Below are positions 24,846-28,247 of a DNA stretch of 64,000 nt, one piece after another. The stretch's first letter is position 1; every line of letters starts with the position of its first letter. Made by a program: the position numbers and the translations under genes. Where the stretch lies: positions 1,860,001 through 1,924,000 of the forward strand of contig NZ_CP118157.1 in the NCBI RefSeq assembly GCF_032878875.1, in the 5' to 3' direction. The DNA comes from Microbacterium sp. AB. GTDB lineage: Bacteria > Actinomycetota > Actinomycetes > Actinomycetales > Microbacteriaceae. The notes below the pieces were generated by a model. It was not told where the DNA came from, searched no databases, and saw only the letters and a list, made by a program, of their open reading frames with translations.

Positions 24846-26036
<1,191 letters not shown>

Positions 26037-26094
26037 GGCGGCTCCAGGCGATCGGTCGGACGCGGTGCGGTTCGCGCCGCGCCCTCCAGTATGA

Positions 26095-26129
26095 CGAGGG
26101 CCTCCGACACTCGGTGACGGAGGCCCTCG
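26095..26129. terminator. Terminator between rpoZ and metK
   Basis: CGAGGGCCTCCG (26095-26106) and CGGAGGCCCTCG (26118-26129) form a perfect 12-bp stem with an 11-base loop, 31 bases after the rpoZ stop. It probably ends the pyr-gmk-rpoZ transcript. Confidence 0.85.
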
Positions 26130-26159
26130 GTATGACGTTCTGCTACTCGGCGGCGCTCA

Positions 26160-26414
26160 TCACTCCGCGGGACGGAGGCGCAGCTTGTCCTGGTGGATCT
26201 CGTGCAGCGCGATCGTGAGCGGCTTGTCCTCGACCGACGAGTCGACGAGCGGCCCGACGTTGTCGAAGAGGTTGCCCTCGTGCAGATCGGTGTAGTAGTC
26301 GTTGATCTGGCGGGCGCGCTTGGCGCCGTAGATCACAAGCTGGTACTTCGAGTCGACGCGGTCGAGAAGCTCGTCGATCGGCGGGTCGATGATGCCCTTG
26401 TGCTCGCTGCTCAT
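26160..26414 (-). CDS. rpoZ: RNA polymerase omega subunit
   Basis: An 84-residue omega subunit, which helps assemble the beta' subunit and contributes to a (p)ppGpp site in some bacteria. [33 protein letters not shown] carries the conserved VDSKY and AKRARQIN elements (shown here in pieces: [14 protein letters not shown], then [10 protein letters not shown]). The ATG at 26414 has a perfect AGGAGG six bases upstream; the frame extends 11 residues further without support. It follows the gmk fusion by 66 bases, the same order as gmk-rpoZ in mycobacteria. Confidence 0.96.
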
Positions 26415-26480: not shown

Positions 26481-27404
26481 TCAGCGCCCGGATGCCTGGA
26501 TCAAGTCTACGACCTGTCGCGCCGCATCGGCGACGCTGTCGTTCACGACGCGGAAGTCGAACTCCCCCTGCGCGGCCAGCTCGACCTTCGCCGTGCGCAG
26601 CCGGCGGGCCCGCTCCTCGGCGTCCTCCGTCCCGCGTCCGACGAGGCGCGAGGTCAGCTCGTCCCAGCTCGGCGGCAGCAGGAACACGAGCGTCGCGGAG
26701 GGGGCGGCCGCCCGCACCTGGCGCGCGCCCTGCAGGTCGATCTCGAGGAGGACGGCCTTCCCGTCGGCCAGCGCCCGCTCGATGGGGGCGCGCGGCGTGC
26801 CGTAACGGTGCCGGTTGTGTACCGTGGCGTGCTCGAGCAGCTCGCCGTCGGCGACGAGGCGGTCGAACTCCGCGTCGTCGACGAAGAAGTAGTGCTCGCC
26901 GTCCACCTCGCCCGGGCGCGGCGGGCGCGTCGTCGCCGAGACCGACAGCAGCAGCTCGGGGTGGTGCTCCTTGATGTGGGCCGCCACCGTGCCCTTGCCC
27001 ACCGCCGTCGGACCGGCGAGCACGATGAGCCGGCTCCGGCCGGGTCGCGCCTCCGGCTCCGGCATGCGGTCGTCCAGCCATGCGGCCAGCGCCTGGCGCT
27101 GCCGGCCGCCGAGGCCGCCGATGCGCTTGACGGGCGAGATCGCGAGCTCCGTCAGGATGCGGTCGCGCTTCCCCTCCCCGATCGCGGGAAGGGCGGTGAG
27201 GAACTCCGGCACGCGCAGGGTCCCGGCCGGCGAGTGCGGATCGGCGTCCGCACGGCGCAGGATCTCCTGCGGCGTCACGACGCGCGTCGACAGGTCCCGC
27301 TTGAGGCTCGCCCGTGCACGGCGCGCCTCGACGGCCCTCCGCGACGCGGCGGCGCGGTCGACCTCGGGCGGGGCGGGGCGGGGCACGCCCGGGTGCTCAG
27401 TCAA
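26481..27404 (-). CDS. gmk: Fusion of an mIHF-like DNA-binding domain with guanylate kinase
   Basis: A 307-residue protein in two parts. Residues ~15-112 match the actinobacterial integration host factor mIHF: a basic helix ([17 protein letters not shown]), then [20 protein letters not shown] and [20 protein letters not shown], the helix-two-turn-helix fold. Residues ~124-307 are guanylate kinase: P-loop [12 protein letters not shown] (~130-140), [20 protein letters not shown], and [12 protein letters not shown] for GMP; it converts GMP to GDP. In mycobacteria mihF, gmk and rpoZ are three adjacent genes, so this looks like joining of neighbours. The TTG start at 27404 follows GGAGG by five bases and overlaps the pyrF stop by eight bases. 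The window holds no separate mihF. Confidence 0.93.
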
Positions 27405-28247
27405 CGGATCCTCCGTCCCGCTCGCGCCGGTAGGCCCGCGCGGCCTCCGCGACGGCGTCGGCGATGTCGGCCGGACCGGCCGCGAGGATGCTCCGGCTCT
27501 CGGAGGCGATGACGCACGGCGCCATGTCCCCGAAGACCGACGCGAGGTCGCCGCCGCGCGCGCCCTGGAACCCGAAGCCGGGCGCGAGGATGGGAGCCGG
27601 CGGCGCGAACGGCGCGAGCCCGGCGTCCGTCCATCCCACCGTCGCGCCGATGACGAGCCCGGTGCTCCCCCACTCGCCGTCGGCGGCGACGCGCGCGTTG
27701 CGGGCCGAGACGTCCGACACGATCGACGCCGAGACCGTCCCGCGCTCCGTCGCGGCGCGCTGCACGCCGACGGCCTCCGGGTTGCTCGTGGCCGCGAGGA
27801 CGAACGCGCCCTTCCCGTGCGCGTCCGCGAGGGACAGCGCGCCCTCCAGCGCGCCGACGCCGAGGTACGGGCTCATCGTGAGCGCGTCCGCCTCGAGCGG
27901 CGACCCCGGGGCGAGCCAGGCCGCCGCGTACGCGTCCATGGTCGAGCCGATGTCCCCGCGCTTCGCGTCGGCGATGACGATCAGCCCCGCCGCGCGCGCC
28001 GCGGCGAGCACCTCCTCCAGCGCCGCGAAGCCGGCGGACCCGAACCGCTCGTAGAACGACGCCTGCGGCTTGACGAAGCCCGCACGACCCGTCGCCGCCT
28101 CGACGACGCGGAGGCCGAACTCGCGCACGCCGCCGGCGTCCGCCGCCAGCCCCCACTCCGCGAGGAGGGAGAGGTGCGGGTCGATGCCCACGCAGAGCGG
28201 CCCGCGTGCGCCGACGACGGATCGGACCCGCTCTCCGAAGGCGGCCA

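Follow-up and report, generated by a model that had tools for sequence, protein, structure and literature searches.

Actinobacterial IHF, described as mIHF (Rv1388) in Mycobacterium tuberculosis and as sIHF (SCO1480) in Streptomyces, is a free protein of about 105 residues covered by the NF041260 and PF22525 models. It is essential in mycobacteria (excerpted texts of PMC6155035 and PMC10028186). According to the excerpt of PMC6155035, mihF of M. tuberculosis has its own transcription starts, mIHF ranks among the ten most abundant proteins, and mihF could be deleted only with gmk and rpoZ supplied in trans, owing to polar effects; thus, mihF, gmk and rpoZ form one unit in this organism without being fused.

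The window (the whole 64,000-nucleotide stretch of Microbacterium sp. AB DNA that was analysed) carries an IHF domain and a guanylate kinase as one gene (Table 1). A single stop-free frame on the minus strand encodes 307 residues, from a TTG at 27404 to a stop at 26481. This TTG is the first possible start, as no ATG, GTG or TTG lies between it and the preceding stop. The first 8 nt of the gene overlap the end of pyrF, including its stop (TTGACTGA, 27404-27397), in line with the coupling to pyrF that the original prediction proposed. The identities of the neighbouring pyrF, rpoZ and metK genes were verified. No coaBC (dfp) gene is found between rpoZ and metK (26036-26160), its place in mycobacteria.

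Table 1. Features of the fused gene and its neighbours, in window coordinates.
Feature	Position	Strand	Remarks
Fused gene, IHF (mIHF) domain + guanylate kinase, 307 aa	26481..27404	-	TTG start; domain profiles
IHF/H2TH domain, residues 16-108	27081..27359	-	NF041260 above cut-off; N-domain model matches sIHF-DNA complexes
Linker, residues ~113-123	27036..27068	-	10-residue pLDDT means 76-83, whole-protein model
Guanylate kinase domain, residues 125-303, P-loop G131-T139	26496..27032	-	TIGR03263 above cut-off
Shine-Dalgarno GGAGG, within the 3' end of pyrF	27410..27414	-	5 nt before TTG
pyrF (orotidine-5'-phosphate decarboxylase)	27397..28233	-	Upstream neighbour; start approximate
rpoZ (RNA polymerase omega)	26160..26414	-	Next downstream; start inferred from ATG of MSSEHKG
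metK	24846..26036	-	After rpoZ, same gene block

Both halves score above the cut-offs of their family models. The NCBIfam actino_IHF model (NF041260) matches residues 16-108 with 70.3 bits (cut-off 60), and Guanyl_kin (TIGR03263) matches residues 125-303 with 213.5 bits (cut-off 160.45). Pfam places H2TH_5 at residues 46-107 and Guanylate_kin at 124-304, each above its cut-off, and a sequence search of the PDB returns mIHF (6tob, E 2e-14), sIHF (4itq, E 3.4e-8) and M. tuberculosis Gmk (1znw, E 4.5e-54). The genome of the strain (3,636,743 bp, one contig) has one IHF and one guanylate kinase above the cut-offs, and both are the fused gene. The profile search for a second, stand-alone mihF in this genome, a check proposed at the outset, returned two sub-threshold matches (19.7 and 17.5 bits) and none above the cut-off; at that threshold, the IHF domain is present solely as part of the fusion. 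Guanylate kinase activity (GMP + ATP to GDP + ADP) is expected of the protein since the fused gene is the only guanylate kinase above the cut-off in the genome.

An AlphaFold2 (AF2) model of the whole protein, made with an alignment of 44 fused proteins (A1), has a mean pLDDT of 92.5 and comprises two confident domains and a weaker stretch at about residues 111-130; with a pTM of 0.68, it gives no firm mutual arrangement of the domains. Searched with Foldseek, the whole model finds kinases only among the 50 matches listed, and the N domain was therefore modelled apart. The N-terminal 116 residues (A2, 33 selected rows of fused and separate proteins; pLDDT 93.8) are predicted to form helices at residues 14-39, 45-54, 65-70, 77-86 and 100-113, that is, the long helix 1 and H2TH of the mIHF/sIHF fold. 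The best PDB matches of this model are DNA-bound sIHF (6bek_D, TM 0.88; 4itq_A, TM 0.85; by target length), followed by mIHF (6tob). The kinase half best matches M. tuberculosis Gmk (1s4q, E 4.7e-22). Seven residues, K137, S156, R160, R163, Y172, R257 and R268, which make up the P-loop lysine and the GMP-site and lid residues, are identical in 44/44 rows of A1. Thus, the original prediction of one uninterrupted frame with an mIHF-like N-terminus and an intact guanylate kinase is borne out by the family models, the PDB matches, the predicted folds and the retention of every site residue checked.

The fusion is family-wide. As a query, the window protein matches 149 of 149 Microbacteriaceae genomes (78 genera), and the proposed survey of the family finds the IHF-kinase fusion in 141 of them, in one frame in 140 and split across two contig ends in the other (G134). 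The one-frame calls are based mostly on match span and stop count; one genome with a long linker (G140) was called by inspecting its locus. In-frame stops were flagged in some Microbacteriaceae rows; in the five genomes inspected, none lies between the two domains of a fused gene. In the databases, both domains are in the precomputed Pfam architecture of all 120 matches listed (of 8000), the source names of the fused proteins are nearly always 'guanylate kinase', and NCBI types its IHF model as 'equivalog_domain'. Microbacterium-type fused genes are also recorded under Stenotrophomonas maltophilia P13 (82% identity) and Planococcus sp. APC 4015 (76%); these records are probably contaminated or mislabelled assemblies, and a record named Micromonospora sp. 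DT81.3 (P0066) may be another.

The IHF model (E<=1e-4) has exactly one match in 140 of the 149 Microbacteriaceae genomes, an extra 23-bit match in one (G148) and no match in eight. The IHF-less genomes belong to three genera (three to g10, three to g12 and two to g65). The pyrF stop and the kinase domain are at most 13 nt apart in six of these genomes and 32 nt apart in a seventh (L126); in the remaining locus (L127, genus g65), the intervening 286 nt code for an Ala/Thr/Pro-rich stretch. As judged from these pyrF-gmk junctions, which replace the IHF match in three genera, the IHF half can be lost while the kinase stays and is dispensable there. The g10 and g12 genomes without an IHF match are 1.3-1.7 Mb in size. 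The smallest Microbacteriaceae genome surveyed (G013, 0.93 Mb) retains the fusion, with an IHF score of 56-58 bits.

Selection was estimated from 84 loci of the Microbacterium type, namely the 80 best-matching of 123 relatives and four more, at least two of them duplicates. In 84/84, no stop interrupts the frame across the two domains. Values of dN/dS (Nei-Gojobori) are rough, as synonymous sites are near saturation, and amount to about 0.15 for helix 1, 0.28 for residues 41-62, about 0.27 for the H2TH, about 0.18 for the kinase and about 0.41 for the linker, which is under the weakest selection. The low values indicate that the IHF half is translated and constrained, and the open frame together with purifying selection argues that the fused frame is not due to chance. 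The linker between the domain HMMs is 12 residues long in 78/84 of these loci and 6-39 residues long in 33 other Microbacteriaceae loci.

The TTG at 27404 was predicted to be the only start with a clear ribosome site. The GGAGG is indeed present; its exclusivity needs one qualification, as the residue-40 column (T in the window) has a start-like codon in 39/84 loci, 25 of them with an SD-like core. Initiation at residue 40 would remove helix 1 and thus would not be a kinase-only start. In only 52/84 loci does an SD-like core precede a start codon located no more than 40 codons before the IHF domain; the true start is thus less clear in some relatives than in others. An internal start that yields only the kinase would have spoken against the fusion; no conserved one was found in the 84 loci. 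One Microbacterium oryzae record (P0014) has 268 residues and matches 87% of the query, and another of that species has 309; databases seem to start some fused genes late, perhaps at a Met near residue 40.

Outside Microbacteriaceae, the non-fused loci inspected have mihF next to gmk as a gene of its own, as anticipated by the original prediction that the fusion joins genes that are elsewhere adjacent. In the other families of the order, no fusion is found among the matches listed with the protein query (297 genomes) or by the IHF model (159 genomes), and every full-length match listed outside Microbacteriaceae has at least one stop. Long IHF frames (at least 280 residues) in these families were examined as candidate fusions and rejected, nine by inspection of the locus and three by coordinates only; a long frame (338) from the class survey (G556) was also inspected and is not fused. 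An IHF match (E<=1e-4) is missing from 14/159 genomes of the order, including 11/11 of one family (f4), which may thus do without actinobacterial IHF as a whole. Among 57 separate loci, the mihF stop lies -1 to 678 nt from the kinase domain. In four loci inspected among the full-length matches of the order outside Microbacteriaceae (L137, L138, L139 and L141), mihF ends in the frame of the kinase, 18-60 nt before its domain. The loss of one stop is thus a possible route of fusion. It is not established, as same-frame pairs are not in excess: 9/57 loci are in frame, fewer than the one third expected by chance, in a non-random sample that includes the four loci chosen for being in frame.

A second fusion is found in Nanopelagicaceae, the abundant freshwater acI group. 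In a survey of the class (158 genomes), the IHF open frames of one family (f39) were conspicuously long, at 291-321 residues, and inspection of each locus placed IHF and kinase in one frame in 13/13 genomes; fused proteins of this type are assigned to Candidatus Nanopelagicaceae in the protein search (e.g., Candidatus Planktophila sulfonica). The order of Nanopelagicaceae has the fusion in one frame in 102 of 121 genomes; two more are interrupted by contig ends (G635 and G663), and the remaining 17, from five genera, have the two genes unfused. Inspection of the locus covered 36 of the fused genomes, and the others were called by match span and an open frame of at least 290 residues, eight of them with a flagged stop. 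A tree of the kinase domain (63 rows) rejects the grouping of every fused kinase in one clade (p-AU 9e-65; log-likelihood lower by 118); thus, Nanopelagicaceae made the IHF-kinase fusion independently of Microbacteriaceae. In this tree, Nanopelagicaceae, fused and unfused, form one side of a branch (support 98/93), as do fused and IHF-less Microbacteriaceae (88/88, not starred). The fused Nanopelagicaceae do not fall together in the best tree, but grouping them is not rejected (p 0.21); there may have been more than one gain or loss of the fusion inside this lineage. Of 69 initial rows, six that are long or divergent (L136, L227, L228, L132, L133 and L231) were left out of the tree; in a quick tree that includes them, L136 and the g12 pair fall outside the other Microbacteriaceae on long branches. 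A survey of the phylum (396 genomes) gave one further fusion among the matches listed (L227 of G919, family f53), for which one frame was confirmed and whose IHF domain is without its first residues. The f53 relative L228 is separate, with one in-frame stop. This third case is weak as it concerns 1/35 genomes of the family, a MAG that is 82% complete.

The fusion in Microbacteriaceae is accompanied by a change upstream. The gap between the pyrF stop and the point where the IHF domain model begins has a median of 13 nt in 83 loci of the Microbacterium type (at most 90 nt in 78 of them) and 19 nt in 33 other Microbacteriaceae loci (at most 90 nt in 33/33), so that the tight junction with pyrF found in the window extends across the family. 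By contrast, the median is 219.5 nt (124-1126) in 14 separate loci of the same order and 212 nt in other separate loci (pyrF found in 15/36). Microbacteriaceae have thus lost the gap before mihF. With the gap, a separate promoter was probably lost, given that mihF of M. tuberculosis has start sites of its own (PMC6155035, excerpt). In Nanopelagicaceae, the gap is short in fused loci (median 40 nt; 46 loci, 36 genomes) and unfused loci (median 47 nt; n=7) alike and is, therefore, independent of the fusion. In a comparison of codon adaptation in 20 genomes, meant to reveal a lowered expression of IHF, background genes outscored ribosomal ones in 7.

The residues of the IHF half that are presumed to contact DNA are in part retained and in part changed. 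In the 33 rows of A2, fused and separate, R17, R28, R31, K35, G76, R94, G97, G99 and Q102 are identical; the fused domains thus keep the H2TH glycines as well as the basic R28, R31 and K35 of helix 1. The arginines of the RRxR motif (R170/R171/R173 in the 190-residue numbering) are presumed to be important for DNA binding by mIHF. The window protein has K93, R94 and G96 at these positions; the motif is K-R-x-G in Microbacteriaceae and R-R-x-Q/A/G in Nanopelagicaceae. Counted over distinct domains, the third arginine is present in 1/114 Microbacteriaceae and 0/35 Nanopelagicaceae versus 42/47 separate proteins. This loss cannot be assigned to fusion: the relation is an association of counts that are not independent events, and some unfused loci also lack the arginine (seven unfused Nanopelagicaceae have 4 R, 1 G, 1 K and 1 Q, and the unfused L191 and L228 are without it). 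The mean net charge of the IHF domain is +10.6 in 80 Microbacterium-type loci and +9.0 in 37 other Microbacteriaceae loci versus +7.4 in 14 same-order separate loci, and in Nanopelagicaceae +8.7 in fused (46 loci, 36 genomes) versus +9.7 in unfused loci (n=7). The IHF domain has diverged in Microbacteriaceae, with family-model scores of 44-83 bits versus 107-149 bits in separate mIHF of the same order. DNA binding is probably kept but changed, and the loss of the third arginine (G96) together with a lysine in place of the first (K93) suggests that the DNA contact may be altered or weaker.

Taken together, the data favour, with a probability of roughly 0.6, a bifunctional protein in which a DNA-binding IHF/H2TH half and a GMP kinase half are joined by a short flexible tether and are made 1:1 in the pyrF unit. 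The C-terminal half would make GDP from GMP, while the N-terminal half has most likely kept a weak, dynamic DNA binding, such that the kinase would be on the nucleoid part of the time. The halves, joined by a linker that is short and probably flexible, would act largely independently. The sensing of GMP/GDP levels at the nucleoid put forward in the original prediction is, like any cross-talk between the halves, conjectural. Such a protein would have arisen when the neighbours mihF and gmk were brought into one frame, for example by loss of the stop between them; in Microbacteriaceae, the gap before mihF was lost as well and with it a presumed promoter, which would fix production at 1:1 within the pyrF unit and at a lower IHF dose than that of free mIHF. 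What the sequences establish is the architecture, the presence as a single copy, the spread, the selection acting on each half, the independent second origin and the loss of the pyrF-mihF gap. Judged from sequence, a tether that matters and a fusion that is a bystander of gene order carry about equal weight. The bystander version, which falls a little short of an even chance, holds that co-transcribed neighbours were joined by chance and that each half keeps its old job, the tether itself being without function; it shares the kept functions with the bifunctional reading, and the odds of the two overlap. The variable length and weak constraint of the linker are consistent with it, as are the tight pyrF-gmk junction in most IHF-less genomes and the short gap in unfused Nanopelagicaceae. 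It accounts less readily for the retention of the fusion in 141/149 Microbacteriaceae and its independent appearance in a second lineage, and locking mIHF 1:1 to an enzyme should be costly, to judge from M. tuberculosis (PMC6155035, excerpt). In favour of the bifunctional reading, large tags on msIHF are tolerated: according to the excerpt of PMC10028186, the native protein, which is essential, can be exchanged for a form tagged with EGFP, mNeonGreen, PAmCherry or HaloTag with no growth defect, and the Dendra2-tagged form causes a slight growth delay.

That the IHF half is no longer a nucleoid protein and instead acts as a regulatory domain, with the kinase itself, the ribosome or RNA as its binding partner, is unlikely. 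The R173 equivalent is lost in most members of both fused lineages, the family scores of the Microbacteriaceae domains are low, and the N domain has a weak fold similarity to ribosomal S13-type H2TH domains (from rank 6, E 0.15 and up), all of which would suit such repurposing. However, the net positive charge is kept, the basic residues of helix 1 are invariant, all four fold matches at E<=0.001 are to mIHF or to chains of sIHF-DNA complexes (three), and the three Nanopelagicaceae IHF copies scanned score 79.5-130.9 bits, two of them near separate mIHF. Less probable still is a gene with two products, in which an internal start or proteolysis frees the kinase and the fusion is genetic only. 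V128 has a start-like codon in 60/84 Microbacterium-type loci, but an SD-like core precedes only 5 of those 60; the residue is inside a predicted beta-strand (126-130), and in the IHF-less genus g10 (L129 and L131) a Met precedes by three residues the RLTV/KLIV at the head of this strand. An artefact of annotation or assembly is hardly conceivable, as over 200 genomes from two families have the same open frame and both halves are under purifying selection. A bolder reading, which we consider rather doubtful, is that a free, abundant, promoter-driven nucleoid protein has twice become the DNA-tethering or regulatory domain of a GMP kinase, placing GDP supply on the chromosome or under its control; both lineages would have lost the free form of IHF and mostly the same presumed DNA-contact arginine, and Microbacteriaceae the upstream region as well.

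Actinobacterial IHF is thus carried only as half of a nucleotide enzyme in a large bacterial family and in a family of abundant freshwater actinobacteria, which challenges the assumption that mIHF must be free and in large excess. The natural variants (fused, unfused sisters and those with the IHF half lost) are suited to testing IHF function and a link between guanine nucleotides and the nucleoid, and the soil-dwelling Microbacteriaceae and the Nanopelagicaceae allow one to ask whether nucleotide synthesis is tied to DNA. Gene counts that label the fused proteins as plain 'guanylate kinase' may report mIHF as absent. The domains and the database architecture are already known. The original prediction did not anticipate the spread across the family, the three genera without the IHF half or the second lineage. 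It would have lost its novelty had the fusion been well described; no paper describing an IHF-kinase fusion was found in the searches of the open-licence literature, nor was a description found there of its family-wide presence, second origin, loss in three genera or linked gap loss.

Compared with M. tuberculosis, the fused locus has the same genes in the same order (mihF-gmk-rpoZ), whereas mihF and gmk are two genes in that species and mIHF is very abundant with transcription starts of its own (PMC6155035, excerpt). The N-terminal domain is like actinobacterial IHF in fold, H2TH glycines, basic helix 1, proximity to gmk and rpoZ, and presence as the sole copy; it differs in being joined to a kinase, in K93/G96, in its lower family score and in the loss of the pyrF-mihF gap. 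The C-terminal domain is like bacterial Gmk (TIGR03263; 1s4q/1znw) in the site residues checked, fold and single copy, to which the fused protein adds an N-terminal extension of about 120 residues of a DNA-binding type. The MAGUK-type guanylate kinase domains are also part of multidomain proteins, in this case eukaryotic scaffold proteins, and have lost catalysis; unlike these domains, the fused protein keeps its kinase site residues.
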